Origin: Clostridiaceae bacterium
Lineage (GTDB): Bacteria; Bacillota; Clostridia; DSM-8532
Assembly (NCBI GenBank): GCA_012840245.1
Contig: DULR01000017.1
Location: 1-64,000, forward strand
Reading direction: 5' to 3'
Length of the DNA stretch: 64,000 bases
The notes under the pieces are model-generated. The model was not told where the DNA came from, did no database searches, and worked only from the letters and a program-made list of their open reading frames with translations. Position numbers and translations under genes: made by a program. Positions 17,981 through 34,973 of the stretch are shown here, in pieces. Numbering within the stretch: the first letter of the stretch is position 1; every line of letters begins with the position of its first letter.

Positions 17981-19378
17981 CTATAGCCCTGACGGTGATT
18001 TGAACAGAAAATACAGCATGAAGGTAATTGCAAGTAAATCGGCACAGCCACCGGGACTTACATTTATCAGGATAAAAATATCATCCAGCTTTTTTGAAAT
18101 CACTTTAATATCCCAGGCTTCGGGCTCTCTGTCTCTGATGAGCTCCCGGATCGTGCTCCGCAATTCCATCAAAGTTTCAGGGCATGAGCGGCCAATTATA
18201 TTCGTGTCATCAACATGTGCCATCAGATTGATCAGTACGGCAACCCCCGCGTCATTCAGCGAAAAGCCTCTGTCTATAAGCCTGCACATCAGGGGAAGAC
18301 CATATTCGGTTACAGATGTAAAACCGCCGGCCGCCTCACCTCTGGCTCCGGTTATGCCATATTGAACAAATATATTCTCTCCCTTTGTTTTTACAGGCTT
18401 TGGTCCAGACTTCCCGAAATCATTGTCAAGCGCAACAGTAGCCATTTTTGCGCACATGTCCCTCAGGTTCTCCAGATTTTCGGTCTTATTCCATCTATGC
18501 AGATATCCCATTGCGACACATACGAGCCCAAGTGAGAAAATCGCGCCCTTGTGGGTATTGACGCCATTTGTAGCCTCAAGCATAGCCTCCTCGGCTTCAA
18601 TGCCAAGATGCCTTGCACGGACAAACAGCCTCTCAGGGTCATTGCTCTCATCGCTCAGGCCGAGCATCGTGAGTCTGTAGAAATATTTATAAAGCGCTGA
18701 GGCACTGTTCATGAAGGTGAAGATATCCATATCCTCATGTGCCCCCTGATTGCAGCAGTCAACAAGGCCAGGCTTAGGTGTCACACATACCTCATACAGT
18801 ATGGATCTCTGGGCAAGTGAAGCTATCCTGTGGGAATATTCATCGTCAAAATAGCCCTTGAGCCTTTTTATAGTCTCTTCCTTAAGCGTTTCCAGGGAAT
18901 GATTTCGGCTTCTTGCGCACAATGCTGCCGGAGCATCACATATAATGCAGCGACGGGCTTCCATTCCCAGATCCGTACGTGATAGTTTTCTCCCATCGGG
19001 TGAAATAACATCTATATCAAAAAAACGTCCCAGAGGGTGGTGATCCTCAATTACAGCCATTTGTGCCTTGATTTTGGATGCGTCACCCGTTACGACAAAA
19101 AACGCCTCGCAGCCTGTATCGGAGATTTTCTCCTCAAAGGCAGCCAGAACATCCGAATTCATCTCAAGTCGCTTTTTTATTATTCCCTTACCTATGTCAA
19201 AGGCCTTTCGTGACAGGGTGAATGATTTGACCGGTCCTGCTATATTCAGGGTAAAGCAGATGACCGGAAGACCATATTGCTTTATAAGCCTTTCCTGAGC
19301 TTCCACCCTCTCCTCTCTGGCCTGGAGCATCTGTTCAAGAGCAACAGTCCTGCCATCAAAAAAAGCGTCGATTTCCAT
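17981..19378 (-). CDS. citXG: Fused CitX-CitG: citrate lyase holo-synthase / triphosphoribosyl-dephospho-CoA synthase
   Basis: The 465 residues combine two activities that make and attach the citrate lyase prosthetic group. The N-terminal ~180 residues are CitX (LGRFFDIDVISPDGRKLSR, then RRCIICDAPAALCARSR), which transfers phosphoribosyl-dephospho-CoA to the acyl carrier. The rest is CitG (TPKPGLVDCCNQGAHEDMD, GVNTHKGAIFSLG, GITGARGEAAGGF), which condenses ATP with dephospho-CoA and releases adenine. AGGA precedes the ATG. It is the last gene of the cit run, separated from citC by a 157-base gap that holds a MITE-like palindrome, so read-through into it may be reduced. Confidence 0.93.
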   Translation of the reverse strand: MEIDAFFDGRTVALEQMLQAREERVEAQERLIKQYGLPVICFTLNIAGPVKSFTLSRKAFDIGKGIIKKRLEMNSDVLAAFEEKISDTGCEAFFVVTGDASKIKAQMAVIEDHHPLGRFFDIDVISPDGRKLSRTDLGMEARRCIICDAPAALCARSRNHSLETLKEETIKRLKGYFDDEYSHRIASLAQRSILYEVCVTPKPGLVDCCNQGAHEDMDIFTFMNSASALYKYFYRLTMLGLSDESNDPERLFVRARHLGIEAEEAMLEATNGVNTHKGAIFSLGLVCVAMGYLHRWNKTENLENLRDMCAKMATVALDNDFGKSGPKPVKTKGENIFVQYGITGARGEAAGGFTSVTEYGLPLMCRLIDRGFSLNDAGVAVLINLMAHVDDTNIIGRSCPETLMELRSTIRELIRDREPEAWDIKVISKKLDDIFILINVSPGGCADLLAITFMLYFLFKSPSGL

Positions 19379-19535: not shown

Positions 19536-20609
19536 TTATGCTCCGGGTTTTAAGCCCGGTGAAATAAGATAATTGTTCCTCAAAGTCTCTGCAAGCTTTC
19601 TTCCCTCTTCAGAAGTAATATAGCTGTAGGTAACAGGCGGCACCAGCGATTTGAGCCCCTCATAATCACCTGCCGCCATCAGCCTCCTGACTCTTGAAGC
19701 ACTGATCGCCTCACCGCCGGATGTGACCCGGGGCACTTCGATTATTTCTATTCCGCTGCCTTTAAAAAACTCCTTCATCTGCGAATTATATGCAGCTGTT
19801 ACGGGGCATAAGGGCTCGGTCCCTACAAAGCGCTTCCTGATTCCCAGCTCTCGGGCAAAATGATCCCTGAACATGGCAAGATCCAGAGTGCAGTTGATTT
19901 TATCAGCATCTGCGCGCTCCTTGATAAAATAGGATGGAAATGTTGCCGATGAAATCAGATAATCTGAGGTTGAATGCACTGTTACATTTTTGATATGTGA
20001 AACGCCCTCTCTGACCAGACGGTGGCGGACCTCCGCCCTGAAAACGCTTTTATCCTCGGCAAGAACAAAAATATGAAGCCATTGGCAGGCGCTGGCTGCT
20101 TTTTCTATAAGATACAGATGACCGTTGGTAAAGGGATTGCAGTTCACTACTATTGCACCCACATCTGTGATGCCCTCGGGTCTCGGCAGAGATTTAAGAT
20201 AATTCTGCAGACCATCCCTTACATTCTCCATCAAAACTGCTTCCCGGGTCGCAGCGACAGGATAGAACCCCAGCCCTGAAAAAAGAGCTTTATTTTCTGG
20301 TTTTGTGAAAATAAAAAGATGATCGAGTCCCTTTTGCAGGGCATATGTCATGAGATGAGTCATAACCGAAGCGCTCAGTCCCTCACCCTGATATTCTTCC
20401 GAAATGGCGACACATTTGATGACATTGCTTTCCAATGATCCGGTAGCGATTATTTCGCCGTCATGGTCGTACAGATTGACGGTAAACTGTATACCCTCAT
20501 CATATTGGAGGCCGTTTTGCCCTAAAAACTCCCTGGTCAGTTTAAGGCTAATGCCCTTGAAAGGATAACCGTACATAAAGCTGAAAGCGCCATAGGCCAT
20601 AATATGCAC
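19536..20609 (-). CDS. citC: [Citrate (pro-3S)-lyase] ligase
   Basis: It acetylates the prosthetic group of the citrate lyase acyl carrier with acetate and ATP, switching the enzyme on. The 357 residues have an N-terminal GNAT-like part (~30-130: EEYQGEGLSASVMTHLMTYAL) and a cytidylyltransferase-like ligase part whose nucleotide-binding motif NCNPFTNGHLYLIEKA lies near residue 155. The ribosome site is weak, and MAYGAFSF three codons further in is another possible start. It follows citF by 38 bases. Confidence 0.94.
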   Translation of the reverse strand: MHIMAYGAFSFMYGYPFKGISLKLTREFLGQNGLQYDEGIQFTVNLYDHDGEIIATGSLESNVIKCVAISEEYQGEGLSASVMTHLMTYALQKGLDHLFIFTKPENKALFSGLGFYPVAATREAVLMENVRDGLQNYLKSLPRPEGITDVGAIVVNCNPFTNGHLYLIEKAASACQWLHIFVLAEDKSVFRAEVRHRLVREGVSHIKNVTVHSTSDYLISSATFPSYFIKERADADKINCTLDLAMFRDHFARELGIRKRFVGTEPLCPVTAAYNSQMKEFFKGSGIEIIEVPRVTSGGEAISASRVRRLMAAGDYEGLKSLVPPVTYSYITSEEGRKLAETLRNNYLISPGLKPGA

Positions 20610-20647: not shown

Positions 20648-22192
20648 TCATTCTGCTATCTGGTATATAAGATCGATAACCGACCCGTCACGGTATGTAA
20701 CTACACCGACAACTTTATCCGTATACCTGACTGGCTCAGGACAACCGGCAAGCCGCTCGGCGCTTTCCTGAAGCTCTTCTATCCTTCTGACATGAAGGCC
20801 GGCTTTTGTCAGCCGTTCATATAGCTCAGGCCTTTGCGGATTGACAGCTATACCCTGGTCGGTAACCACAACATCTATGGTTTTTCCCGGAGTTACGATC
20901 GTATTCAGCCTTTTGACGATCGTGGGTATTCTGCCCCTCATCAATGGAGCCACGACTATTGCCATGCCCGCTCCTGCGGCAGTATCGCAATGTCCTCCGA
21001 TAGCTCCTCTTATAACACCATCCGAGCCTGTCAGAACATTTACATTAAAATCTGTGTCGATTTCCAGAGCCGACAGGACCACAACATCAAGCTGATTGAC
21101 TGCTGAGCCTTCATTACCGGGACTGGCGTAGTAGGATGCGTCGATTTGCTGGTGGAAACGGTTATTTTTAAGGGATTCAGCCGCAATTAAGTCGAATGAC
21201 TGCACATCGAGCAGTTTCTTTACAAGTCCTTCCTCATGAAGCTTTACTACCTGACCGGTTATTCCGCCAAGTACAAAGCTGGCCTTGATTTTTTCCTCCA
21301 GCATTTTTTCTCTTAAAAAACGGGCTGTGGCCAGAGATGCTCCCCCGGTACCCAGCTGAAAGGAAAAGCCGTCATAGAAATAGCCGCTGGCTGCAATGAC
21401 CTCGGTGGTCGTCTCGGCTATCAAAAGCTCCTTTGGATTTTTTGTGTAACGGGTGGCCCCGCTCATTATGCCCTGGGGATCTCCGATTGCATCGACCTTC
21501 ACAATATAGTCGACCTGCGATTCGGGGATACCAAAGGGTGCGTTGGGATAGGGCACTATATTATCAGTAATGATGACCACTTTGTCGGCATAAAGGGCAT
21601 CCAGCTTGGCATAGCCCATGGAGCCGCAGGATATGCCCGTATCATGGTCACGGGAATAGCCGTTGGCATTTCCGTAGGGGTCACAGGATGGAGCGCCCAG
21701 AAAGGCCACATCTATTTTAAGCTGACCGCTTTCAATAGCATATGCCCGACCGCCATGAGAGCGGAAGGTAACAGGAATATCCATGAGCCCCCTGGATATC
21801 GCATCAGCAAGCTTACTTCTCATTCCGCTTGTTTCAATACGTTTGACCACACCACTTTTGATATGTCCGACCAGGGGATCATGTATTTCAGCAAGAGAAC
21901 TGGCTGCTACCGTAAGGTCCTTTATTCCCATTCTGGCGATGGTCTCCATGACCATATTGAGAACATAGTCACCATTTCTGAAATGATGATGGAATGATAT
22001 GGTCATGCCATCCTTCAGTCCGCACATCTCAACTGCCTTTTCTATACTGGGAAGAACCTTGTTGTGAACTGCGCTTCTCTCTTTAAGGCATATGATATCC
22101 TTTTGCATAGCCCTGCAGCCATCACGGAATGGTTCTTTTATTCCACTCAGGCTGTTTATATATGGTATCGAGCTTATATCTGTTTCTTTCAT
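20648..22192 (-). CDS. citF: Citrate lyase alpha subunit (citrate:acetyl-ACP transferase)
   Basis: It exchanges the acetyl group on the acyl carrier for citrate, giving citryl-ACP. At 514 residues it is the usual family length. Features include GMTISFHHHFRNGDYVLNMVM near 60 and the glycine-rich runs FQLGTGGASLATARF and GAIGGHCDTAAGAGMAIV typical of CoA-transferase-type folds. It overlaps the end of citE by four bases (ATGA), which indicates translational coupling. Confidence 0.95.
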   Translation of the reverse strand: MKETDISSIPYINSLSGIKEPFRDGCRAMQKDIICLKERSAVHNKVLPSIEKAVEMCGLKDGMTISFHHHFRNGDYVLNMVMETIARMGIKDLTVAASSLAEIHDPLVGHIKSGVVKRIETSGMRSKLADAISRGLMDIPVTFRSHGGRAYAIESGQLKIDVAFLGAPSCDPYGNANGYSRDHDTGISCGSMGYAKLDALYADKVVIITDNIVPYPNAPFGIPESQVDYIVKVDAIGDPQGIMSGATRYTKNPKELLIAETTTEVIAASGYFYDGFSFQLGTGGASLATARFLREKMLEEKIKASFVLGGITGQVVKLHEEGLVKKLLDVQSFDLIAAESLKNNRFHQQIDASYYASPGNEGSAVNQLDVVVLSALEIDTDFNVNVLTGSDGVIRGAIGGHCDTAAGAGMAIVVAPLMRGRIPTIVKRLNTIVTPGKTIDVVVTDQGIAVNPQRPELYERLTKAGLHVRRIEELQESAERLAGCPEPVRYTDKVVGVVTYRDGSVIDLIYQIAE

Positions 22193-23079
22193 TGCATTGC
22201 ACTCCTTAAAGCATTTGTCGCGCCGGCAAGCTCAAGAAGATGCAAGGCCCTGTCCAGAACAGGCTTGTCGATCATTTTGCCGTTCATGCTCACAACACCT
22301 GAGCCCCTTTTCCTGGCTTCCTCCATTGCTTCAACGATAGCAAGGGATTTTTCAATTTCATCTTTCGTTGGGGTAAACACAGCATGAAGAGGTTTTATCT
22401 GACTTGGATTGATCACTGATTTTCCGTCGAAGCCAAGCTGCTTTATAAGCTTTGCTTCTTTTATGAATCCTTCTGTATCGTTAACATCTGAAAAAACAGT
22501 ATCCAATGCGTCGATCCCGGCGCTCCGGGCAGCCATGACGATCATACTTCGGGCTGTCAGAAGCTCAATACCGTCAGCAGAGCGGGTGGTTTTAAGATCT
22601 GCGGTAAAGTCCTCTGCTCCCAGCGCGATACCGACCAGCCTTTTGCTGGCGTGGGCAATTTCCCTGGCATTGAGAACCCCCTGTGCGCTTTCAATAGCGG
22701 CTATCATTTTTGTCTTTCCGACAGGAATGCCGCAGGCTGCCTCGATCCTTTCGATTTCCTTCTCACATGCTATTACGTCCTGCTCAGAATCGGTCTTCGG
22801 CAGGCGTATGACATCAGGCTGCGCCCGTACGACCGCTTCGAGATCCTTCAAACCGAAATCGGTGTCCAGCCCGTTGATCCGTACAGCTACTTCCTTGCCG
22901 CCGAAATCCAGGGTTTTCAGCGCGTTATAAACAAGAAACCGGGCTGCATCCTTTTCTGTCATGGCCACCGAGTCCTCAAGATCGAGCAGGATCACGTCAG
23001 ACCCGTAAATGTGCGCATCACGAATCATACCGGGATTGTTGCCCGGAACATACAGAATGCTCCTTCTGAGCCTTTTCAT
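22189..23079 (-). CDS. citE: Citrate lyase beta subunit (citryl-ACP lyase)
   Basis: It splits citryl-ACP into oxaloacetate and acetyl-ACP. The 296 residues show the HpcH/HpaI-type TIM barrel, with RSILYVPGNNPGMIRDA at the start, DVILLDLEDSV (Mg ligand region), VAVRINGLDTDFG, and the later metal and substrate motifs AAIESAQGVLNAREIA and GAEDFTADL. It starts on the base after the citD stop, so translation should be coupled. Confidence 0.95.
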   Translation of the reverse strand: MKRLRRSILYVPGNNPGMIRDAHIYGSDVILLDLEDSVAMTEKDAARFLVYNALKTLDFGGKEVAVRINGLDTDFGLKDLEAVVRAQPDVIRLPKTDSEQDVIACEKEIERIEAACGIPVGKTKMIAAIESAQGVLNAREIAHASKRLVGIALGAEDFTADLKTTRSADGIELLTARSMIVMAARSAGIDALDTVFSDVNDTEGFIKEAKLIKQLGFDGKSVINPSQIKPLHAVFTPTKDEIEKSLAIVEAMEEARKRGSGVVSMNGKMIDKPVLDRALHLLELAGATNALRSAMQ

Positions 23080-23379
23080 TTATGCATTACTTCCTTCCCA
23101 GATGTAATCGTCCGACTGGCCGGCTCTGTAAATGGCAGCAGCGGTTCTGGCCCTGATGGTGCAATCCAGCGCCCCCTTATCAATGGCGGTTATGCGGGCT
23201 CCTTCAACACCCAGCTCACAGGCCGTGTCCATGATCACCTTTCTGATCTGATTGCCAAATTGCTTTATAACCAGGCTGTCCAAAGAAATGGTTATTTTGT
23301 TGTCGTCAGATGGCTCAACTTTTATCAGGATATCGCTGGACTCCAGTGTTCCAGCGATACCTACCTCTTTTATTTTCAT
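23080..23379 (-). CDS. citD: Citrate lyase gamma subunit (acyl carrier protein)
   Basis: The 99 residues carry the phosphoribosyl-dephospho-CoA arm of citrate lyase. The N-terminal GIAGTLESSDILIKVEP contains the modified serine region of the family. GAAGGGAC precedes the ATG. It lies 32 bases downstream of a DraG-family gene on the same strand with no terminator between, so the cit genes may be read as part of the longer run that begins at the ribokinase gene. Confidence 0.94.
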   Translation of the reverse strand: MKIKEVGIAGTLESSDILIKVEPSDDNKITISLDSLVIKQFGNQIRKVIMDTACELGVEGARITAIDKGALDCTIRARTAAAIYRAGQSDDYIWEGSNA

Positions 23380-23411: not shown

Positions 23412-24575
23412 TCAAATGATCCGGCTGATATTGTTCCTGACCTCTTCAGCCCTCTTAAGATCCTTTGCGATTATCTCTTTTGCAGTCATTATGAATTCAT
23501 CAACGCATCTGTCTATATCGAGCCTGCTCTTCTTATCTACTATTTCTATCTCATTTTTATCGAAGATCTCATATCCATACAGAGCACCAGCGATAACTCC
23601 GGCCATGACTCCTACCGAGTCTGCGTCTCTTCCTGAGTTGACACCGTCTATGACAGCCTGGATGGGTCTGTCCTCGTACAGTGTCACATAAGCGATGGCT
23701 ATGGGCAGCTCCTCGATCGAGTAGAGACGGCTGGGAGTATAATTATGAGTAGGCTGTCCCACTCTTTCGATGGATCTTGCGAACTGCTCTGCCACAGGCG
23801 AATATGGAAGGATAGCTTTGAAGAATTCTTCTATGATGAACGCCTTCTCCTCTCTTCTGGAGCGAAGTTCCATAGCCTTTTGATAAAGGTCACGTATAGC
23901 GTTCCTGGTACCGTCCTTGGCAAGCTCAAGAGCTGTTTTTACTACATCATGGATAGTTGCTCCAGGTTCAAATGCCTTGGATATAATCGCTGCGAGAACT
24001 CCTGCAGCCTCCAGCCCATAGCTGAGCTGATGACCGACTGCAAAATCAATTGCTTCATCATAAGCCGCTTTCGGATTGCATGCGTTGACAACTCCCACGG
24101 GAGATATATACATTGCCGCTCCACAGTTGACCATGTTTCCCATGCCGCCTTCCCTGGGATCGCAGTTGGCAAGTCCATGGCGGTTGAATATATGCTTTTC
24201 GGGATAGAACAGCCTTTCCACTATCATGGCTTCCCTGCCGAATTCGGCTATATATCTGGGCCTGTATGCAATTTCCTTTATGAATTCATCTGCCATATCA
24301 TAGGCATCTATATGATCTTTTTTCGCTTTGTAAACATTCAAAAGAGCAAGGGTCATAAGAGTATCATCGGTGATGGTGCCATAACCCCTCATCCTGTCGG
24401 CTCTTTCCACTACGCTCTTGTCTGCTTTCCACCATTTTGTGTTGACGGTGGTTACAGGTCCTCCATAGAGATCAAGGATCTGCTGATGCGTCAGCCTTTC
24501 AACGGGAGCTCCGAGAGCATCTCCAAAGGCTGTTCCGTATATAACGCCACGGGTTTTTCTTTCAAAGTCGGTCAT
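23412..24575 (-). CDS. ADP-ribosylglycohydrolase (DraG) family protein
   Basis: 387 residues. Family members hydrolyse ribosyl-linked substrates using two Mg or Mn ions. The motifs are GTAFGDALGAPVERL near residue 15, TITDDTLMTLALLN (metal-binding Asp pair, ~68) and GRDADSVGVMAGVIAGALYG near 315 (second Asp pair), so all expected metal ligands are present. There is no signal peptide. It lies 20 bases after the 700-residue DraG gene and 32 bases before citD. Proteins of this family in sugar loci often act on small ribosides rather than ADP-ribosylated proteins, and the ribokinase upstream fits that reading. Confidence 0.9.
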   Translation of the reverse strand: MTDFERKTRGVIYGTAFGDALGAPVERLTHQQILDLYGGPVTTVNTKWWKADKSVVERADRMRGYGTITDDTLMTLALLNVYKAKKDHIDAYDMADEFIKEIAYRPRYIAEFGREAMIVERLFYPEKHIFNRHGLANCDPREGGMGNMVNCGAAMYISPVGVVNACNPKAAYDEAIDFAVGHQLSYGLEAAGVLAAIISKAFEPGATIHDVVKTALELAKDGTRNAIRDLYQKAMELRSRREEKAFIIEEFFKAILPYSPVAEQFARSIERVGQPTHNYTPSRLYSIEELPIAIAYVTLYEDRPIQAVIDGVNSGRDADSVGVMAGVIAGALYGYEIFDKNEIEIVDKKSRLDIDRCVDEFIMTAKEIIAKDLKRAEEVRNNISRII

Positions 24576-24595
24576 GATGAAGTACCTCCGCGTAT

Positions 24596-26698
24596 TTATA
24601 ATTCTTCAAAAGTTACATCAGAAAACAATGTTCTTCCCATATAGAGCTTGGCAAATCCGAACATACCGTAGGCAAAATCACTGTCCCTGGCCTCAAGGAG
24701 TTTTTCACCGTCAATATACAGAGTTATCTGATCTGCCACTGCCTTCAGTGAAACAGTATAGGTCTTTCCGTATTCCCATGGAAAATCGGCTTCGCAAAGC
24801 TTCTCAAACCCGAAGTTATTCTTGTAGATGGCGATCTTGCCGGGCTTGTCGAATCCTGCATGATAACCGCGTTCGATTCCCTGGGATCTGGCAGTGAGCA
24901 TGTGCCCGCTGCCGTTTTCAGCAGTTATTTTGGCTGTTACCATATAATCTCTGGCAAAATAGTTGCCTGAGAATGACTGGGCATAGTCGCAGCACATGGC
25001 ATCCAGCTTCCCGTCTTCAATGGACCATGCTCCGTGATTGTGTGAGAATGGCGTAACTGAACCGAAGTTTTTGAGCTGCTTGCTGAAATCGATGCTGTAT
25101 TTGGCCTTTCCATAGATCCTGAAGTCGTCTATGAAGATCCTTCCAAGGCTTTTGACCTTTGCAGAATAACCTTCGACAATGATACCTACCTCGTCGATCA
25201 TTTCCCCGTCTGTATCGGGTATTGTAAATTCTACCTTCGTCCATTCGTGCTGTGCCGGTCTGATATATCCCTGCACAAGATCCTTTTTTGATTTTGCCAG
25301 TCTTACGAAAGGAGCGATGCCTATGGTCTCATTTCCTTCCCATTGGTCGAGATATACCTGAAGGCTCACCTTCTGTCCGCTGTATGCCTTTGGCGAAAAT
25401 ACAGGCATGTACCGCTCATCGCTGAAGTCATCGCGGGTATAGAAGGGCTTGTAGAAGACCTTGCATCCCTGATATCTTTCCAGCCTGTCGAAAAGCACTT
25501 CGATAGAACCCTTGCTTTGGAAAGCTGTCTCATCAGAATGCTTTATTCTGCAAAGGAACGGATCCGACACCCTGAAATTGTGGGTGGAACCCGGCAGTTC
25601 AAAGTCAAAGTATATTTCATCCTCTTTAAAGCTGTATTTCAGCCACTCCGGAGCTTCCTCCCCCGCCATGCGGTAGCCGAGCAAGGCCAGCTCTTTGGCG
25701 TAGGTCGGGATATCGACTATATTGAGATATCCGGATACACCGGACAATACGATAGAATCGTTTATGGGATCACGGTACCTTGCAGCCAGGCCATCGAGAC
25801 CGCACATTACACCCAGTACGGTCCCAACGTTTCCTGCATTGCAGTCGGTATCCCATCCGCACATGGTAGCAATTTCAACGGTGCGGTTGAAATCGCCTTT
25901 CCCATACATCATGGCAAGCGCGCATACACCCGCATTGGGTATGATGTGGCAAACACCCTTGTACTTGTCATAACCCCAGTCTCTGATGAGCATATCCATG
26001 CATAGCCTGAAATCATCAGGATGCTCATCATAGAAATCCATAACCGCACGCACGACCCTGCTGTATGTGCTGTCTTCGGGTATAAAGGTAAGAGCCTTTT
26101 CTATTATGGCCCGGATGTCATTGCAAACAAAAGCTTCGGCTATAGCCGCGCAGAAAAATCTTGCGCCGTTCAGTCCTTCGCCGTCATGGGATACGCTTGC
26201 AGCAGTCGCTCCCAGCTTTGCTGCCTTTTCAGGATCGCCCGGGCATATCAATCCCCATGTGTCTATGAATATCTGACCACCTATCTGTTCGGCGATGGTT
26301 CTGCCGTTCTGGGCAATCGAACCTGACTGAGGAGGTTTTATACCGGCCTTAAGATTAAGAAATGCGGTGTGTTCGGTACTGACCCCATAGCCTCCCCACC
26401 AGAACATGCCTACCCCCTCCCTGGCATAGTTGAGCCATGCCCGGCCTACGTCTTCGGGAGTAAGTTCTCTGTCCTTTGCATCATCATAGAGTGCTCTTAA
26501 GAAATAAAAAGGGCCGTTTGCGTCATCATCTGCCGCAAAGTTCTTGTAATCCTTCACATATGACGTTATATCCCCATAAGTTTTCCTTATTCTCTCATAA
26601 GTCCATATAGTGGGCTCGACCGGGGCACCAAGCCTTATTCCGATGTTCATTCCCAGAAATCCGGAATATACTTTTTCCAGATAATTTTCCTGAATCAT
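24596..26698 (-). CDS. DraG-family hydrolase fused to C-terminal lectin-like domains
   Basis: 700 residues from the ATG at 26698, which follows GGCGG. The track start is a TTG six codons earlier. Residues ~1-350 form an ADP-ribosylglycohydrolase domain: GFLGMNIGIRLGAPVEP, the metal site FAADDDANGPFYFL and CGWDTDCNAGNVGTVLGVMCGL. Residues ~370-520 look like a galactose-binding beta-sandwich. Residues ~530-700 resemble a LamG/concanavalin-like domain (YTVSLKAVADQITLYIDGEKLLEARDSDFAYGMFG). No signal peptide is seen, so the lectin-like part would work inside the cell. That is odd and suggests recognition of a larger glycosidic substrate. Confidence 0.85.
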   Translation of the reverse strand: MIQENYLEKVYSGFLGMNIGIRLGAPVEPTIWTYERIRKTYGDITSYVKDYKNFAADDDANGPFYFLRALYDDAKDRELTPEDVGRAWLNYAREGVGMFWWGGYGVSTEHTAFLNLKAGIKPPQSGSIAQNGRTIAEQIGGQIFIDTWGLICPGDPEKAAKLGATAASVSHDGEGLNGARFFCAAIAEAFVCNDIRAIIEKALTFIPEDSTYSRVVRAVMDFYDEHPDDFRLCMDMLIRDWGYDKYKGVCHIIPNAGVCALAMMYGKGDFNRTVEIATMCGWDTDCNAGNVGTVLGVMCGLDGLAARYRDPINDSIVLSGVSGYLNIVDIPTYAKELALLGYRMAGEEAPEWLKYSFKEDEIYFDFELPGSTHNFRVSDPFLCRIKHSDETAFQSKGSIEVLFDRLERYQGCKVFYKPFYTRDDFSDERYMPVFSPKAYSGQKVSLQVYLDQWEGNETIGIAPFVRLAKSKKDLVQGYIRPAQHEWTKVEFTIPDTDGEMIDEVGIIVEGYSAKVKSLGRIFIDDFRIYGKAKYSIDFSKQLKNFGSVTPFSHNHGAWSIEDGKLDAMCCDYAQSFSGNYFARDYMVTAKITAENGSGHMLTARSQGIERGYHAGFDKPGKIAIYKNNFGFEKLCEADFPWEYGKTYTVSLKAVADQITLYIDGEKLLEARDSDFAYGMFGFAKLYMGRTLFSDVTFEEL

Positions 26699-26785
26699 AA
26701 CAGCACCGCCTTTCAATCATCAAACAGATGGCAAATCACATAATGCAATCAATATATTTACCCAATTAAAATGTCTTGATAATCT

Positions 26786-27688
26786 TCAGCATATTTCAGA
26801 CCTTGAGGGAATGGAAGACTGGGCTCCGTTACGTGAAACACAGATCCTCGCAGCCTTGTTCGCAAAAGCGATGGCTTCATCGATACTCATGTTTTCCGAT
26901 AAACCCACAGCAAATGCCGCATTGAAGGTATCCCCCGCGGCAGTGGTGTCAACGACCTCAATATCTTCAACCTTGAAGACTTTCGAACCGTCTTTGTTTA
27001 CCCAGATAGCCCCTTCCCTGCCGAGAGTTGCGATGACATTTTTCGCGCCTTTCTGAAGCAGTATATCAGAAGCCTTTTTCGCCGTATCCACATCCTTTAC
27101 CGGCGTGCCCGACAGCTTTTCCAGCTCAGATTCATTCGGAGTAAGATAATCCACAAGCTTAAGGATTTCATCGGGAATACTGTCAGGTGCGGGAGCAGGA
27201 TTAAGCATCACTGTACAGCCATGCTTATGTGCCAGGCGTATTGCAAGATATGCCGCTTCAAGAGGGATCTCAAGCTGAATGAGAATGATTTTGCTTTTTG
27301 ATATCACTTCTTCGTTGTTTGCGATAAAGTCTGTGTCGCAGGCTGAGTTCGCAGCCGGAAGAACAACGATGCTGTTGTCTCCTTCTTCATTTATATAAAT
27401 GATCGCGATTCCGCTGGTTTCATCCTGCTGACATGAAATGTTCGAAACATCGACCCCGACATTGGACAAATTATCTATAAGCTGTTTGCCTAAATCGTCG
27501 TTACCCACTTTGCCGAGCATTGAAACCCCATGTCCAAGCTTGGCCGCTGCATATGCCTGATTGGCGCCCTTCCCTCCGGGTACATACCCATGGAGTTTGC
27601 CCATAACAGTTTCACCAACTCGAGGTATTTCTTTCAAATGGATTACCATATCCATGTTCAAACTGCCAATTACTAATATGTTTTGCAC
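26786..27688 (-). CDS. rbsK: Ribokinase
   Basis: A PfkB-family kinase that phosphorylates ribose at C5. At 300 residues it has full length. It shows GSLNMDMVIHLKEIPRVGETV at the start, the sugar-binding GGKGANQAYAAAKLG, and the ATP and catalytic motif TTAAGDTFNAAFAVGL with the base Asp. It uses a GTG start preceded by GGAGG. It is first in a run of same-strand genes (two DraG-family proteins, then cit genes) and has a near-perfect promoter with a LacI-type operator upstream. Confidence 0.93.
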   Translation of the reverse strand: MQNILVIGSLNMDMVIHLKEIPRVGETVMGKLHGYVPGGKGANQAYAAAKLGHGVSMLGKVGNDDLGKQLIDNLSNVGVDVSNISCQQDETSGIAIIYINEEGDNSIVVLPAANSACDTDFIANNEEVISKSKIILIQLEIPLEAAYLAIRLAHKHGCTVMLNPAPAPDSIPDEILKLVDYLTPNESELEKLSGTPVKDVDTAKKASDILLQKGAKNVIATLGREGAIWVNKDGSKVFKVEDIEVVDTTAAGDTFNAAFAVGLSENMSIDEAIAFANKAARICVSRNGAQSSIPSRSEIC

Positions 27689-27763
27689 GTCACTACCTCC
27701 GATGAATCAATTCGGTTGATGGTATTTTGTTGAATTCAGCATAGCAATTAAAATTGTAAGAGT

Positions 27764-27771
27764 AACCGGTT
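27764..27771 (-). promoter_or_regulatory. LacI-type operator at the ribokinase promoter
   Basis: AACCGGTT, within GAAACCGGTTAC on the minus strand, about 15 bases downstream of the -10 box of the ribokinase promoter. It is the same core as at 29241-29250 next to the importer genes. Confidence 0.7.
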
Positions 27772-27784
27772 TCGTTCAATAACA

Positions 27785-27813
27785 ATTATATTAATTGTAA
27801 CTACCATTGTCAA
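27785..27813 (-). promoter_or_regulatory. Sigma-A promoter of the ribokinase-DraG-cit run
   Basis: On the minus strand TTGACA, 17 bases, TATAAT: a consensus promoter with the operator immediately downstream. Confidence 0.85.
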
Positions 27814-27941
27814 CAGCCCAATCATCGTTTTGTGACGGTAAAGCATGACAGTTGACTATGCCTGTATTATCAAGTATAATAGGCCTTGGAACGATTCTGC
27901 GATCGATCGGGAAATATGATGAATGTCAATTAAATAGCAAA

Positions 27942-27954
27942 GAAACCGTTTTAC
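27942..27954 (+). promoter_or_regulatory. Partial LacI-type operator upstream of the regulator gene
   Basis: GAAACCGTTTTAC resembles the GAAACCGGTTT sites. It lies about 30 bases upstream of the -35 box of the lacI promoter and may allow autoregulation or looping. Confidence 0.4.
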
Positions 27955-27984
27955 ATAAAATATAACATATTGAGAGAAACCTTG

Positions 27985-28013
27985 TTGATTTTTTGCAAAT
28001 CAATATTTATAAT
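27985..28013 (+). promoter_or_regulatory. Promoter of the LacI-family regulator gene
   Basis: TTGATT, 17 bases, TATAAT, ending 35 bases before the proposed start. Confidence 0.65.
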
Positions 28014-28048
28014 ATTTTAGAACAATTATCGGATTGGAGATGGCCGAT

Positions 28049-29068
28049 TTGAGATGCACCATATCAGATATCGCCCGGATCGCGAAAGTTTCAAAAGCTA
28101 CAGTTTCACGCGTTATCAACAACAAGAGCGAAGGGGTAAGCCCTGAGACAGCGCAAAGGATCCGTGAAATAATAGAAGAGCTTGGATACCGGCCCAACTC
28201 ATTGGCCCGCAGCATTGCAAACTCCAGGGCTAAGATGCTCGGTCTGGTCATTCCGGATATCACCAACCCATTCTTCCCCAACCTTGTCCGGGGCATCGAG
28301 GATTATGCCAATTCCTGCGGCTATACGGTTTTTCTCTGCAATACCGACAACAACCCCGAAAAGGAAGAACAGTACCTTCTGTCTCTCATAGACAAAAGGG
28401 TAGACGGGATAATACTCGTTTCTACTACCTCTCAGAGCTGTACTCTGGAACAGCTCAACAAGTACAATATACCCTTTGTCCTTGTGGACCGTCCCCTTAC
28501 CAATGAATATATAGACCTGGGCGTGTATGCCAACAACTATAAGGGAGTTTATACAGCCGTCGAGTACCTGATAGGCTGCGGGCACAGGGATATAGCCTTC
28601 CTGGGAGGAACCAGGAAGGTCATCACTACGACAGAGCGGTTCGAAGGCTACAGGGACGCTCTGAGGGATGCCAACATCCCTTTGGACAAGTCGCTCGTCA
28701 AGTTCGGAGATTATTCCATCGCCTCGGGGATAGCAATGATGGAGAAGCTTATTGAAGAGAAAGCCGGATTTACCGCTGTCATGGCAGGCAACGATCTTAT
28801 TGCCATAGGAGCAGTAAAAGCTCTCAGGCATCACCGCATCAAGGTTCCGGACCAATGTGAGATAATAGGGTTCGACGGGATCGAACTGACCGAGATCTTC
28901 GATCCGGCTATTTCTACCGTAGTCCAGCCCATCTATGAAATCGCCATCGAGTCAGCGAAGCTTCTGATTGGTAAAATCAACGGAGAAATAACCTCATCCA
29001 GAAAGATCATAGTGGAACCCACCCTTGTATTGAGAGCCACGACAAGAAACAATAAGACTCAGGAATAA
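28049..29068 (+). CDS. LacI/GalR-family transcriptional regulator
   Basis: About 339 residues. The N-terminal helix-turn-helix reads CTISDIARIAKVSKATVSRVINNKSEGVSPETAQRI, followed by the hinge RPNSLARSIANSRAKMLGLVIPDI and a periplasmic-binding-protein-like sensor domain (LGGTRKVITTTERFEGYRDAL, GFDGIELTEI). The ATG at 28040 directly abuts GGAG, too close to work. The TTG at 28049 has nine bases of spacing and gives a normal LacI start (MRCTISDIA), so it is preferred. It is divergent from rbsK and upstream of a sugar importer, and likely represses both through AACCGGTT sites. A ribose or riboside effector is inferred only. Confidence 0.9.
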   Translation: MRCTISDIARIAKVSKATVSRVINNKSEGVSPETAQRIREIIEELGYRPNSLARSIANSRAKMLGLVIPDITNPFFPNLVRGIEDYANSCGYTVFLCNTDNNPEKEEQYLLSLIDKRVDGIILVSTTSQSCTLEQLNKYNIPFVLVDRPLTNEYIDLGVYANNYKGVYTAVEYLIGCGHRDIAFLGGTRKVITTTERFEGYRDALRDANIPLDKSLVKFGDYSIASGIAMMEKLIEEKAGFTAVMAGNDLIAIGAVKALRHHRIKVPDQCEIIGFDGIELTEIFDPAISTVVQPIYEIAIESAKLLIGKINGEITSSRKIIVEPTLVLRATTRNNKTQE

Positions 29069-29202
29069 TGCCGATACTACAACATGGTTTTCTGTTTATG
29101 AATATTCAATTATTGGTATTTTCTCTAAATAAAACGGCTTAAGATGCCTGTCCTTTATGCAATTCGCACAATAATGTCAGGGATTTTTGTTCAAAATATC
29201 AG

Positions 29203-29232
29203 TTGCTAATTGCACAGAGGTTAACCTATAAT
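29203..29232 (+). promoter_or_regulatory. Promoter of the ribosyl-compound importer operon
   Basis: TTGCTA, 18 bases, TATAAT, about 85 bases before the first permease start. The operator at 29241 covers the expected transcription start. Confidence 0.6.
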
Positions 29233-29240
29233 AAGTTAAG

Positions 29241-29250
29241 AAACCGGTTT
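29241..29250 (+). promoter_or_regulatory. LacI-type operator at the importer promoter
   Basis: AAACCGGTTT, a perfect palindrome, directly downstream of TATAAT at 29227-29232. It shares its core with the site before rbsK. Confidence 0.72.
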
Positions 29251-29314
29251 AGTTATTTTGAATTCAGCAGGCCTCCTTGACCCTGAAACCATATTCAACA
29301 TCGGAGGTAGTCTT

Positions 29315-30244
29315 ATGACCACACTCGGAAAGGGATTAGAACTTAATAAACATGCAACGTTCCGTAAACTGAAGGCAGACTCCATACTGTATTTGATGAT
29401 AGCGCCCACGATCATTTATTTCCTAATATTCCGTGTATGGCCTATCGCAAATATGAGGCTTGCTTTTTATACTTTCCGCTCAAAGGGACCGTGGGAATTC
29501 GTAGGTTTTAAATACTTCAAGCAGCTTTTCGGATCTCCCGCGTTTTACAGCATTCTCAGAAACACTTTAATAATCAGCTTCATGAAGTATATACTCATGT
29601 TTCCCCTGATTGTGCTGTTTGCTATCCTCCTCAATGAAATGAGAAGCCATTCGCTGAGGAGATCAGTGCAGGTTATTTCATATCTGCCGCACTTTCTGTC
29701 ATGGGTAGTTATAGCAGGTATCTGGCTTTCCTTCCTGTCACCTTCGAATGGTGCTGTCAACCAGATCCTCGGTCTTTTCGGAATGGAACCGGTCGATTTC
29801 ATGACAAGCAAGAAAGCCATAAGATGGGTGTTGTTCTTCTGCGAGCTGTGGCGAAGCATAGGCTGGGACTCCATAATCTATTTCGCCGCCATCATCGGGA
29901 TCGATGCTGAATTGTATGAAGCTGCGGATATCGACGGGGCAGGCCGCCTGAATATAATCAGGTATATCATACTTCCGGCGCTGTTTATCCCAATGGTCAC
30001 CGTATTCATACTGAATCTGGGATTCTTCCTGAACGCAGGTTTTGACCAGGTACTGAATTTTGCTAACGACTCTGTTTTGAGCACCATAGACATTCTGGAC
30101 ACTTACATCTATCGTTTGGGTCTGGTCAATGGTCAATATTCACTAGCGACCGCACTCGGACTTATAAAAGGCGTTGTCGGCGTGTTCCTGGTGCTTGGGA
30201 CCCATGTAGTGTCCAAAAAATATACCGGAGTCGGTGTTTGGTAA
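29315..30244 (+). CDS. Sugar-type ABC importer permease (LplB/YtcP class)
   Basis: 309 residues with six membrane helices (the first is SILYLMIAPTIIYFLIFRVWPI) and the EAA loop ELYEAADIDGAGRLNIIRYIILP that contacts the ATPase. The track frame starts 19 codons upstream, but CGGAGG sits correctly before the ATG at 29315. It forms the transmembrane pair with the next gene and works with the lipoprotein at 31265. No ATPase gene is nearby. Confidence 0.9.
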   Translation: MTTLGKGLELNKHATFRKLKADSILYLMIAPTIIYFLIFRVWPIANMRLAFYTFRSKGPWEFVGFKYFKQLFGSPAFYSILRNTLIISFMKYILMFPLIVLFAILLNEMRSHSLRRSVQVISYLPHFLSWVVIAGIWLSFLSPSNGAVNQILGLFGMEPVDFMTSKKAIRWVLFFCELWRSIGWDSIIYFAAIIGIDAELYEAADIDGAGRLNIIRYIILPALFIPMVTVFILNLGFFLNAGFDQVLNFANDSVLSTIDILDTYIYRLGLVNGQYSLATALGLIKGVVGVFLVLGTHVVSKKYTGVGVW

Positions 30245-30257
30245 GGAGAGATCACAG

Positions 30258-31142
30258 GTGAAACCTAAAAAGAATATATTGGCTCAGGTAATAATATCGA
30301 CAGTAATGATACTGATAATCCTGACTATGATAATTCCCATACTGAATATATTTGCCAAATCATTTTCCGACCCGGCGCTCTCTCCCTCGATGAGTGGTCT
30401 GCGCATTATACCTGTCGGCTTTGACCTGATAAATTATCAGATTATTTTCAGCCATCCGGTGCTGATCCCGTCAATATTCAACTCATTGCTGATAACCATC
30501 GCAGGTACTTGCCTGAACATTTTCATGACCACCTCGGCGGCTTATGTGCTTGTAAGGCCGAATCTGATCGGCAAAAAGGCGATCATGGTATTTCTCATCT
30601 GCATGATGCTTTTTGATCCGGGATTCGTGCCGGAGTATCTGGTAGTGAAAGATCTTGGTCTTATGAACTCCAGATGGTCTGTTATCCTGGTCACGGCTGT
30701 CAACGTTTTTTACCTTGTCATCATGATGCGGTTCTTCGGGGAGGTTCCCAACGAAATGCATGAGGCCGCCACGATCGACGGCGCAGGACATTTCAGGATC
30801 TTCTGGCAGATCTATATGCCGCTTGCCAAATCGGGTATCGCAACTTTGACGATGTACTATGCAGTTTCCAGGTGGAACGAGTATTTCAGATCAGGTATAT
30901 ATCTGCTCGATTCAAAGAAAACTACATTACAGGTTATCCTCAGACAGTTCGTCGTTATGAATTCAACCGAAACCATCGTACGGGCACAGGATCTTCTGGA
31001 CTACAATGAGTTTGCCAAGATCGACGTCAACGCCCTCAAGGCTGCGACGATCGTTGTTGCTATCGTTCCCATAATCATCTTCTACCCGATCATATTGAGA
31101 TACATCAAGGGCGGAGTCATGACAGGCGCTGTAAAAGGATAG
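30258..31142 (+). CDS. Sugar-type ABC importer permease (YtcP class)
   Basis: 294 residues from a GTG start at 30258, preceded by AAGGAGAG. The track start at 30234 is a GTG inside the previous gene. It has six helices (QVIISTVMILIILTMIIPILNIFA first) and the EAA loop EMHEAATIDGAGHFRIFWQIYMP. It partners the preceding permease, with 13 bases between them. The C-terminus GGVMTGAVKG is typical of the class. Confidence 0.9.
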   Translation: MKPKKNILAQVIISTVMILIILTMIIPILNIFAKSFSDPALSPSMSGLRIIPVGFDLINYQIIFSHPVLIPSIFNSLLITIAGTCLNIFMTTSAAYVLVRPNLIGKKAIMVFLICMMLFDPGFVPEYLVVKDLGLMNSRWSVILVTAVNVFYLVIMMRFFGEVPNEMHEAATIDGAGHFRIFWQIYMPLAKSGIATLTMYYAVSRWNEYFRSGIYLLDSKKTTLQVILRQFVVMNSTETIVRAQDLLDYNEFAKIDVNALKAATIVVAIVPIIIFYPIILRYIKGGVMTGAVKG

Positions 31143-31264
31143 TATCTATTGCCCTTTCCAGTTCGTTTAGAATCATCGGAGCATACGGATCTTCTTTAAC
31201 AGCTCTGATGGTTATAATATACGCTTTCGTTTTTCGAAAGTAATCTATTTATAGGAGGAATTAC

Positions 31265-32773
31265 ATGAAAAAGACATTATCAATTCTATTGGCAGTCTTG
31301 ATGATCGTTTCTGTGTTTGCAGGATGCGGCAAGCAACAAACAACCCCGCCTGCAACTACATCAAGCAACCCACCCGCTCAGACAGGCTCTGAACAGCCTA
31401 AAGGAATCGGAACTCCGGAAAACCCCGTGAAGGTTACAATTCTGGAGAAGGACGTCTCCATGTCTGAAGAAGACGTCGTCAAAATGGTCGAAGCCATTGA
31501 AAAGGGAATGGCAGCTGAAGGCAACTATGTTGACATCGAGTATCTTGAGCCTCCTGCAGGCAAGTACGTCGAAGTTGTACCTATCGCCATCAGAACAGGC
31601 CAATATACACCCGATATCGTATACTTCCAGAATGGCGTAGAGCTTCCTCTTGTACAGGAAGGCCTTCTTGAGGACCTGACACCTTACATCGAGAAGTCCA
31701 CCCATATCAAGGCCAATATGGAAGATTACAACTGGGAAAGACTGAAGAACTATCCTTATCTTTTGTGGATAGCACCTCCGATGACTTATGTTCCTTACAT
31801 CAGAGGCGACTGGTTCAATCAGCTCTCTATAAAGGATGAGTTCCTTGCAAATCCGACTGTTGAAAATTACTACAAGATGTTCAAGGAAATCAAGGATAAA
31901 GGTTTGGCTGAATACCCGCTTACCACCGACAACAACAAGCTCCGTCTTGACGGTGTATTCAATCACGCTTTCGGTATTACTTCCACCATCATGAAGGAAG
32001 GCGACAAGTATATCTTCTATCATGTATCACAGGGCGAAAAAGCTAAGCTCGAATGGCTCAACAAGCTCTACACGGAAGGTCTGTTCGATCCTGAGTTCAT
32101 CACAAATACATGGGATGTTATGGAACAGAAGTTCTACGAAGGAAAGAGCGCTTTGATCTCCGGCAGAGCAGGCGACGTTGGACAGATCCATGACACAAAG
32201 ATGATCCAGACCAATGGTGAAGGTGCAGCTCTTGTTGTTCTTCCTCCTGCAAAAGGTGTAAGCTGGGCATATGCTTCAGTTGACGTTACAAGAGAACCCC
32301 GTGGATTTGCTATCACCGCTGACTCCAAGGTCAAGGATGCTGCTTTCGCAGTTCTTGAGTTCATCAACAGCCCTGCAGGAAGAACAATTGACAAGATCGG
32401 TATCGAAGGAATCCATCACAAGGTTGAAAACGGAAAGACCGTTCTCACTGACAAATATTCATCATGGTGGTCACGCTTCTTCGAATCTCTGAACGGATTC
32501 AATCCGAATCCTCCTCTGGAAGGCTCCATATACACTCCTGCAGCACAGGATTCACTCAAAAAGGCTATGGAGTTCTATGCTGAGGATGTGAACATAATCG
32601 TTCCGGAAGAGCTTGCTCCGAAATGGGACGCTATGATCAATCTCTACAATGAGTACTATGCTGACATTATACGTGGTGTCAAACCCGTCAGCGCATTCGA
32701 CGATTTCGTCAAAGAATGGAATGCTGCAGGCGGCGATGAATTCAGCGAATATCTTGCTGAAGTGCTTAAATAA
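31265..32773 (+). CDS. Extracellular solute-binding lipoprotein
   Basis: 502 residues. The lipoprotein signal KKTLSILLAVLMIVSVFAGC (Cys20) is followed by a Thr/Pro-rich linker (TTPPATTSSNPPAQT) and a family-1-type binding fold of the LipO/YtcQ kind. It delivers its ligand to the two permeases upstream. The ligand is not identifiable from sequence; the context of ribokinase and DraG-family hydrolases under the same operator suggests a ribosyl compound. Biased codons suggest strong expression. AGGAGG precedes the ATG. Confidence 0.91.
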   Translation: MKKTLSILLAVLMIVSVFAGCGKQQTTPPATTSSNPPAQTGSEQPKGIGTPENPVKVTILEKDVSMSEEDVVKMVEAIEKGMAAEGNYVDIEYLEPPAGKYVEVVPIAIRTGQYTPDIVYFQNGVELPLVQEGLLEDLTPYIEKSTHIKANMEDYNWERLKNYPYLLWIAPPMTYVPYIRGDWFNQLSIKDEFLANPTVENYYKMFKEIKDKGLAEYPLTTDNNKLRLDGVFNHAFGITSTIMKEGDKYIFYHVSQGEKAKLEWLNKLYTEGLFDPEFITNTWDVMEQKFYEGKSALISGRAGDVGQIHDTKMIQTNGEGAALVVLPPAKGVSWAYASVDVTREPRGFAITADSKVKDAAFAVLEFINSPAGRTIDKIGIEGIHHKVENGKTVLTDKYSSWWSRFFESLNGFNPNPPLEGSIYTPAAQDSLKKAMEFYAEDVNIIVPEELAPKWDAMINLYNEYYADIIRGVKPVSAFDDFVKEWNAAGGDEFSEYLAEVLK

Positions 32774-32786
32774 ATAACAGCTCTCA

Positions 32787-32823
32787 ACACAACAGGTACA
32801 GGCCTCGGCCTTACCTGTTGTGT
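32787..32823 (+). terminator. Stable hairpin after the binding-protein gene (attenuator or weak terminator)
   Basis: ACACAACAGGTA pairs with TACCTGTTGTGT, with a nested AGGC-CTCG-GCCT. No T-run follows, so it may protect the abundant upstream mRNA or reduce read-through into the DraG-family gene rather than stop all transcription. Confidence 0.7.
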
Positions 32824-32860
32824 ATTTAAAACTGATTTTGAGAATAGAAAGGATACCCAG

Positions 32861-33847
32861 ATGATATCAAGATCTGAATTTATCAAAGACAGAAATAAAG
32901 TATTGGACAAAGCATTAGGCAGTTTAAGCGGCCTTGCCATCGGGGACTCCTTCGGTGATGCTTCGAGGAAACCCGACAACCAGCAGAATTATGGGATCAC
33001 GACAGATTTTCACAAGGGTGCATCCTGGAGTACTGATGATACCGAATTCGCATTGCTTACCGCAAAGATACTCATAGATTGCAGAGGAAATCTTACAAGT
33101 GACGATGTGGTAAATGCATGGCTGACACATGTAGCGACTCAGGATGAGCTCAAGAGAGGCGGAGCCAGCGAGTTTGAAGCCTCAAAGAATCTGCGCCGCG
33201 GTTTGCGCCCACCCCTTTCGGGCAAATACAACAGCTATTTCACCAGCGATGGAGCTGCGATGCGCATAGCTCCCATAGGGATAATCTGCGCAGGTGATCC
33301 TGAGAAGGCAGCAGCTATGGCTGAGATAGACGCCAGCATCAGCCATTATGAAGACGGTATCTGGGGCGCACAGGCTGTTGCTGCAGCAGTATCTGTCGCC
33401 ATGGTGGATGGTACCATCGACGAGATAATCGGTGCCGCATTGAACGCTATCCCTTCCGACTCATGGTTCTGTTACACACTCAATAAGGCTCTTGAGATAG
33501 GAAACAGGACAGGAAAATCTCTTATAGATTCATGGATGCCTCTTCACGACGAGCTTTGGGCAAGCTATCGCGCAACTGTGGCCGAGGCTGTTTCAGAGGC
33601 ATTCGGCGTGCTCAATATAGTCAATGATACCTTTAAGAACGGCGTTATAGCCGCAGGCAATTTTGGACGCGACGCTGATACAATAGGAGCTATTGTTGGC
33701 GCTATTCTTGGCGCGAAATACGGCGCTTCCCAGATACCTGAGCATTGGATCGAAAAGACCAGGTATCCGACAGGAACATGTCTTCTCTTTACAAAGGGAA
33801 TCGATATCCGGGAAATGGCCGAAAAACTGGCCGACTTGATCATTTGA
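32861..33847 (+). CDS. ADP-ribosylglycohydrolase (DraG) family protein
   Basis: 328 residues. It has [19 protein letters not shown] at the N-terminus, the metal site [18 protein letters not shown] near residue 60 and the second Asp pair in [23 protein letters not shown] near 270. The metal-binding set is complete and there is no signal peptide. It follows the importer genes on the same strand after a strong hairpin, and is the third DraG-family gene in 10 kb. It probably hydrolyses the compound brought in by the importer, which is inference from context. Confidence 0.9.
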
Positions 33848-33881: not shown

Positions 33882-34973
33882 ATGACATGGTTTTTGGCCA
33901 CCTTTCTGGTTGGCTTGATTGGTGCTTTGATCTGCTTCAAATTAAAAGTTACAGGCGGATTGATGATCGGCTCGCTTGTGGCGGTTGCTTTGTTTAACAT
34001 AATCACCGGACTTGCATATTTTCCGTTGCCTGCGAAAATTTTCGCTCAGATAATATCAGGCGCGTTCATCGGAATGCAGGTTAACAGAAAGAATGTTTCG
34101 GATCTTAAGAAAATGGCGAAACCCACGGTTTTTCTTGTTGGGGGGTTACTGATCATAAATATAATAATGGGCTTCGTCATATACGCTTTATCCGATTGCG
34201 ATCTGATGACAGCTTTATTTGCGGCAGTTCCCGGCGGAGTTGCAGATATAAGTATAATAAGCAGCGATATGGGTGCGGATACATCGAGAGTTGCCGTATT
34301 CCAGCTATTCCGCATGATCACTGTCCTTACCTTTTTCCCTGTTCTGATCCTTCCTGTAACAAAATATATAACCAAAAAGCAACCGCCCTCCAATAATTCT
34401 ATGCAGGAGCAGACCGAAACACAGGCTTCTCCGGAAGCAACCGGCAACAGAAAGACCGTTGATAAACCCGTTAAGAAAACAGTTCTTACTCTTTCAATAG
34501 CTTTTGTCTTCGGCGTATTGGGAGCGATACTTAACATACCGGCAGGTCCGCTTCTATTCTCAACCCTTTCGGTATCGGTCCTCAGTTTATGGACCAATAA
34601 TGCCTATATGCCTTTTGCGATCAAGCGCTTTGCCATGATAATCGCCGGATCTTATGTAGGAAGCAGCTTTATAAGAGAGAATCTTGACGGAATTGTCCGG
34701 CTGATTTTCCCGATGATACTTCTCGTAGCAGGATATATGGTTTTCTGTGTGCTTTTGGGGATCCTTATGAGCCGCCTTTTCAAGATCGATATAACTACCG
34801 CTTTATTCTCCTGCACCCCGGCCGGTGCCAGCGATATGGCTCTGCTGGCAACCGATCTGGGTGCCGCAGGCCCTCAGGTAGCGCTATTGCAGATCGCAAG
34901 GCTGTTCTGTGTCATAACCATCTTCCCGAGGGCAATAGAACTGGTGCTTTGGCTTTGGGGCATGGTTACATAA
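33882..34973 (+). CDS. AbrB-family duplicated membrane protein
   Basis: 363 residues with about ten membrane helices in two homologous halves separated by a polar linker (QPPSNNSMQEQTETQASPEATGNRK, ~165-190). Both halves show the family's glycine motif (AVPGGVADISIISSDMGAD and CTPAGASDMALLATDLGAAG). This is the AbrB-type membrane duplication, not the AbrB DNA-binding regulator. Members are thought to be transporters or to regulate transport, and the substrate is unknown. GGAGGATAAAAGGGA precedes the ATG. It is 34 bases after the DraG-family gene and probably co-transcribed. Confidence 0.85.
   Translation: MTWFLATFLVGLIGALICFKLKVTGGLMIGSLVAVALFNIITGLAYFPLPAKIFAQIISGAFIGMQVNRKNVSDLKKMAKPTVFLVGGLLIINIIMGFVIYALSDCDLMTALFAAVPGGVADISIISSDMGADTSRVAVFQLFRMITVLTFFPVLILPVTKYITKKQPPSNNSMQEQTETQASPEATGNRKTVDKPVKKTVLTLSIAFVFGVLGAILNIPAGPLLFSTLSVSVLSLWTNNAYMPFAIKRFAMIIAGSYVGSSFIRENLDGIVRLIFPMILLVAGYMVFCVLLGILMSRLFKIDITTALFSCTPAGASDMALLATDLGAAGPQVALLQIARLFCVITIFPRAIELVLWLWGMVT

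Follow-up and report, generated by a model that had tools for sequence, protein, structure and literature searches.

What substrate would call for three hydrolases of the DraG fold beside a ribokinase and a sugar importer? The question is raised by a locus at positions 23412–33847 of contig DULR01000017.1 from a Clostridiaceae bacterium (assembly GCA_012840245.1), the first 64 000 nucleotides of which form the window analysed here. A preliminary description of this DNA placed there three DraG-family genes (PF03747), a ribokinase gene, a LacI-type regulator gene, two permease genes and a gene for a binding lipoprotein, and gene positions and profile scores confirm each of these. The bounds given were too short, however, as the adjoining genes citDEFCXG for citrate lyase and a gene for an AbrB-like membrane protein belong to the unit. 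We consider that the locus probably encodes a catabolic unit for a hydroxy-acid riboside, the likeliest candidate being a citrate ribofuranoside; the DraG proteins would cleave it, and its two halves would pass to the ribokinase (RbsK) and to the lyase.

The genes form two divergent arms. From the centre outward, the minus strand carries rbsK (26786–27688), draG2 (24596–26716) and draG1 (23412–24575), and the plus strand carries lacI (28034–29068), permA (29258–30244), permB (30234–31142), the lipoprotein gene (31265–32773) and draG3 (32861–33847). The minus-strand arm continues unbroken after draG1, from 23379 down to 17981, through citD (23080–23379; acyl carrier subunit, PF06857, 104 bits), citE (22189–23079; β subunit, PF03328, 268 bits), citF (20648–22192; α subunit, PF04223, 731 bits), citC (19536–20609; citrate lyase ligase, PF08218, 251 bits) and a citXG fusion (17981–19378; PF01874, 246 bits, and PF03802, 179 bits), whose product synthesizes the phosphoribosyl-dephospho-CoA group and couples it to citrate lyase. 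CitD, CitE, CitF, CitC, CitX and CitG are all found, and the lyase system of the window is thus complete. The gaps along the series rbsK-draG2-draG1-citD-citE-citF-citC-citXG are 69, 20, 32, 0, −4, 38 and 157 nucleotides, and no terminator is predicted in the 32 nucleotides between draG1 and citD. The plus-strand arm is extended by the abrB gene, which starts 34 nucleotides beyond draG3.

The DraG proteins exceed the curated cut-off of PF03747 (ADP_ribosyl_GH; 26.2 bits), with 148.7, 185.6 and 175.7 bits for DraG1, DraG2 and DraG3 respectively, and all three contain the two Asp-rich metal-binding motifs of this family. The complete sets of metal-site aspartates that had been noted in them are invariant among the aligned orthologues: D70, D71, D317 and D319 of DraG1 in 17 of 17, D63, D64, D65, D289 and D291 of DraG2 in 24 of 24, and D59, D60, D271 and D273 of DraG3 in 26 of 26. 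None reaches the cut-off of the DraG equivalog TIGR02662 (337.05 bits; 66.6 and 63.6 bits scored) or of NF041672, the Tri1 ADP-ribosylarginine hydrolase (490 bits; 37.1 and 52.1 bits scored), and DraG2 matches neither model; the former represents the nitrogenase-regulating (dinitrogen reductase) hydrolase and the latter an immunity hydrolase. The AlphaFold model of DraG3 (mean predicted local distance difference test score, pLDDT, 91) has MJ1187, DraG and ARH3 as its top Foldseek matches, at no more than 26 % identity. That of DraG2 (mean pLDDT 88.6) has three parts, namely the DraG domain, a middle beta-sandwich and a C-terminal domain resembling CBM66, a fructan-binding module, with a TM-score (TMt) of up to 0.82 and a root-mean-square deviation of 2.3–2.4; this domain also matches CBM66 in sequence. 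We note that elsewhere in the genome (contig C59, 16051–16368; locus L214) there is a fourth open frame resembling DraG; its roughly 160 amino acids cover the C-terminal half of the family only, and it is possibly a gene remnant. The ribokinase equivalog TIGR02152 matches RbsK at 362.9 bits, above its cut-off of 299.65 bits, and five of the seven module kinases tested from relatives likewise exceed this cut-off.

The association of DraG, ribokinase and importer genes recurs across phyla. When 85 462 species genomes were scanned with DraG2 as the marker of the module, 61 loci were found in other species, mostly at 50–69 % identity, in Paenibacillaceae (Paenibacillus), Clostridia and Spirochaetes. 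Mapping of their neighbourhoods by tblastn places a second DraG gene beside draG2 in 59 of the 61, PermA in 59, PermB in 60, the binding lipoprotein in 59 and a PfkB-family kinase in 39. Since 59 loci keep two DraG genes and 59–60 keep each importer part, the grouping is not due to chance. In another genome of the same family (L205) the genes permA, permB, binding protein, draG3 and abrB are present in this order at 77–87 % identity, up to the end of the contig. At L065 an esterase gene (PF00756; 12117–12884) lies between module genes, as is also the case in L066 and probably in L051 and L089, which suggests that the substrates are acylated in some lineages.

The lyase is the part of the module that is exchanged. 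The pair AtuA (PF07287) and DUF4387 (PF14330) is encoded at 47 of the 61 loci and CitE/CitF at six, none of which also has AtuA or DUF4387; counting the window, and ignoring relatedness, this exclusivity of AtuA-DUF4387 and CitF has P = 1.3e-5. Neither AtuA nor DUF4387 is found in the window, nor DUF4387 anywhere in its genome. Three loci (L061, L064 and L086) share the divergent layout of the window and its rbsK-draG2-draG1 arm, with AtuA-DUF4387 genes downstream where the window has citDEFCXG; draG3 in L064 and the abrB gene in L086 lie between the arm and this pair. A third solution is seen at L053, which encodes a CitE-like lyase and an ADP-forming acyl-CoA synthetase. Citrate lyase, AtuA-DUF4387 and the CitE-like protein with a CoA ligase would be three ways of splitting a hydroxy acid beside its hydroxyl carbon. 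In the reciprocal direction, a search of 300 genomes from the phylum for CitF supplied 20 loci that were read in context; two of these (L184 and L186) each combine four DraG genes with citrate lyase and another kind of sugar importer in one operon, unrelated to the module of the window. Generic DraG loci in related genomes gave no cit or AtuA matches. The linkage of importer, DraG and lyase genes is well supported. Moreover, since the DraG-linked lyases occupy several separate positions in the CitF and CitE trees, the association looks to have been acquired repeatedly.

The same exchange is seen in methylaspartate clusters. All 20 such loci chosen for a nearby DUF4387 gene have AtuA-DUF4387 next to Mal and no cit genes; of 20 chosen without DUF4387, four have CitDEF next to Mal; and no locus among the 40 has both. 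In E. coli O157 the AtuA-DUF4387 genes lie between mal and fumD, and the authors who studied its glutamate cluster did not find the enzyme acting on citramalate (PMC4682846). AtuA itself was tentatively named a hydroxyacyl-CoA:acetate lyase in a terpene pathway (PMC4847356). From its exclusivity and its position relative to the cit genes, we infer that AtuA-DUF4387 is a second hydroxy-acid:acetate lyase, which would need no acyl carrier of the CitD type. It is encoded in 92 of the 399 genomes of this phylum that were examined. The DraG-linked and Mal-linked AtuA proteins form two separate, fully supported clades, which suggests that they act on different acids. We note that the E. coli O157 Sakai genes ECs_0759 (DUF4387) and ECs_0760 (AtuA) (L098, 31934–33618) are labelled acyl-CoA synthetase and 3-methylaspartate ammonia-lyase, labels that have no support from Pfam.

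The window's own lyase may act on citrate. CitF is the sole match to this subunit in the genome; it is 59 % identical to its E. coli K-12 counterpart, and CitE 56 %. In both trees the window lyase groups with the citrate lyase of E. coli K-12, with moderate support (91/83 for CitF). No carrier of the 2HCT or DASS type was found in the genome (99.99 % complete), although carriers of the CitMHS and TTT kinds were not searched for. The only citrate lyase of this genome is therefore without either of the two main kinds of citrate carrier, which fits with citrate arising inside the cell.

Read together, these genes suggest that the two divergent arms make up a single catabolic unit controlled by the LacI repressor. 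The importer arm (permA-permB-binding protein-draG3-abrB) would bring in a hydroxy acid in ribosylated form, probably a citrate ribofuranoside and perhaps an oligomeric one, and the products of the enzyme arm (rbsK-draG2-draG1-citDEFCXG) would degrade it. The DraG hydrolases would cut the ribosyl bonds intracellularly, RbsK would convert the freed ribose to ribose 5-phosphate, and citrate lyase would split the acid into acetate and an oxo acid (oxaloacetate in the case of citrate). In most relatives AtuA-DUF4387 would perform this last step, and at L053 the CoA ligase and CitE-like lyase. The route of import, hydrolysis and ribose phosphorylation proposed in the preliminary description is thus one that fits, given the conservation across phyla, the ribokinase equivalog match and DraG scores under the cut-offs for hydrolases of protein ADP-ribose. 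The substrates suggested there (products of ADP-ribose breakdown, α-ribazole and O-acetyl-ADP-ribose) are not supported, because the C–C lyase for the non-sugar half had been overlooked; its presence in the module points to a riboside of a hydroxy acid resembling citrate. A wider proposal, to which we give about even chances, has two parts. Many Bacillota and Spirochaetes would use glycohydrolases of the DraG fold to salvage ribosides of citrate or related hydroxy acids, which would be a new nutrient class; and AtuA-DUF4387 would be a second citrate/citramalate lyase, not homologous to the first, that would also carry glutamate fermentation onward from citramalate in clusters like that of E. 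coli O157.

Some observations weigh against a citrate riboside. A literature search found no riboside of citrate, and the proposed substrate is therefore one without a known natural source. DraG1 and DraG2 are absent from 13 other genomes of the window's genus, so that the locus is patchily inherited; the module is coherent but patchy in its distribution. Seven of the 61 loci have neither AtuA/DUF4387, CitF nor the alternative seen at L053, at least four of them being cut by contig ends. In modules of the gut type the PfkB kinases score below the ribokinase cut-off, and no kinase is present within the stretches fetched around L184 and L186; the sugar may therefore differ among these systems.

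The strongest competing explanation is that the architecture is as described and that the acid is another one (citramalate, a substituted citrate or one like 3-hydroxy-3-methylglutarate) or the sugar another furanose. We regard this as a possible but clearly less likely interpretation. Citramalate lyase is also replaced by AtuA-DUF4387 in the methylaspartate clusters, some modules have PF00756 esterases and others the sub-threshold kinases, and DraG2 carries the CBM66-like domain, all of which it would accommodate. Against it, CitE and CitF of the window group with E. coli citrate lyase and not with the Mal-linked lyases, and the full separation of the two AtuA clades again suggests different acids.

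Far less probable is an ordinary operon for nucleoside or ribose uptake that lies beside citrate lyase genes by coincidence. LacI, ribokinase and importer genes are indeed typical of ribose operons, and the citrate lyase is of the canonical type, but DraG and lyase genes are paired repeatedly, both with citrate lyases at separate positions in the trees and with AtuA-DUF4387, and the short spacing of draG1 and citD, with no predicted terminator, also argues against coincidence. It is more doubtful still that the DraG proteins turn over the prosthetic group of citrate lyase while the importer carries citrate itself. Phosphoribosyl-dephospho-CoA shares with poly(ADP-ribose) an alpha 1-2 ribosyl bond, the type of bond that ARH3 cleaves, and the DraG and cit genes adjoin; but CitF is lacking from the 47 modules with AtuA-DUF4387, and there is therefore no prosthetic group there to remove, the ribokinase and the multiple DraG paralogues are left unexplained, and no DraG gene lies beside E. 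coli citCDEFXG. Regulatory reversal of protein ADP-ribosylation beside unrelated sugar genes, the least credible of these explanations, agrees with the fold and metal site that the proteins share with DraG and ARH3 but is rejected for want of any support, given scores far under the DraG and Tri1 equivalog cut-offs, a stable link to importer and lyase genes in 61 species and, as the preliminary description had observed, no ADP-ribosyltransferase among the annotated neighbours.

The regulation of the proposed hydroxy-acid riboside unit can be approached from the spaces between its genes. Pattern matching alone predicts a promoter for the enzyme arm (27785–27813, minus strand; TTGACA-17-TATAAT, 12/12) and another for the importer arm (29203–29232, plus strand; TTGCTA-18-TATAAT, 10/12). 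Just downstream of each lies one of two near-identical LacI-type operator-like sites, GTAACCGGTTTC at 27762–27773 and GAAACCGGTTTA at 29240–29251, and a weaker one with two mismatches, GAAACCGTTTTA, is found between the divergent genes (27942–27953). The GTAACCGGTTTC site is one of only two matches with one mismatch to the operator motif in the 64 kb. The sites are consistent with control of both arms by the single LacI protein, whose best NCBIfam model is RbsR (score under its cut-off), but are suggestive only, because the motif was read from these same sites. At seven loci (L038, with a protein of 651 amino acids, L045, L047, L050, L071, L075 and L096) a LacI protein fused to a ribokinase-like domain heads the module. 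GntR-FCD regulators matching that of L039 (1847–2557) occur at 30 of the 61 loci; they are found in modules of the AtuA type and at one truncated locus (L085), and in none of the cit type. FCD domains often sense organic acids.

The sugar importer of the CUT1 type stands as described in its permeases (PF00528) and binding protein (PF01547), but no ATPase gene is present within the cluster. The single OB_MalK match in the genome falls beyond the window, about 101.5 kb along this contig, and completes the set of parts; this MalK-type ATPase presumably serves the importer. The PDB relatives of the lipoprotein include AlgQ1 and AlgQ2 (AlgQ1 at 1e-8). The AbrB-duplication protein (33882–34973, plus strand; TIGR03082, 206 bits) is probably an accessory of the importer arm and possibly an exporter or accessory transporter. 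It accompanies the module at three loci: in the window, in L205, where its gene directly follows draG3 and the identity is 77 %, and inside the L086 module.

If the proposal is correct, proteins of the DraG fold, for which ADP-ribosyl hydrolase is the usual annotation, would gain a nutritional role as riboside hydrolases, and a type of metabolite that has seemingly never been looked for would be predicted. It would also assign a function to AtuA-DUF4387, mis-annotated in E. coli O157, so that two purified proteins would suffice for a direct test of what becomes of citramalate in the glutamate clusters of enterobacteria, a question posed in published work (PMC4682846). The literature searched, which excluded most subscription journals, held no link of DraG to citrate lyase or AtuA-DUF4387, no mention of DUF4387, and nothing relevant on DraG with ribokinase and an importer or on ribose utilization and DraG; a prior description elsewhere is therefore possible.

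Of the systems already described, yegTUV of E. coli, together with yegW (GgaR), resembles the locus in that a DraG-family protein (YegU) and a PfkB kinase (YegV) are accompanied by a transporter and a regulator; its function is unresolved (PMC10819704). It differs in having one DraG protein, a nucleoside:H+ symporter instead of an ABC (ATP-binding cassette) importer, a GntR regulator and no reported hydroxy-acid lyase. The link to glycogen and ADP-glucose proposed for yegTUV has a regulatory basis in the published work, and nothing at the present locus supports it. The E. coli K-12 citCDEFXG fermentation operon has the same subunits and accessory enzymes as the cit genes of the window, but adjoins citT and dpiAB and not DraG hydrolase and ribokinase genes. 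DraG, ARH1 and ARH3 share the fold and metal-binding aspartates of the window proteins, which differ in scoring under the equivalog cut-offs and in belonging to a catabolic operon with an importer. The rbs ribose operon also combines a ribokinase, a LacI-family regulator and an ABC importer, whereas the window has two permeases, an AlgQ-like lipoprotein and the added hydrolases and lyase; the Salmonella STM3547 ribose kinase locus (PMC13432705), with no DraG in its reported neighbourhood, is not analogous. The methylaspartate cluster of E. coli O157 and Clostridia has AtuA-DUF4387 where other genomes have CitDEF (PMC4682846), but there the pair acts after methylaspartate ammonia-lyase, has no DraG matches beside it and belongs to its own AtuA clade. 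The components are known; their combination and the predicted class of substrate appear to be new.

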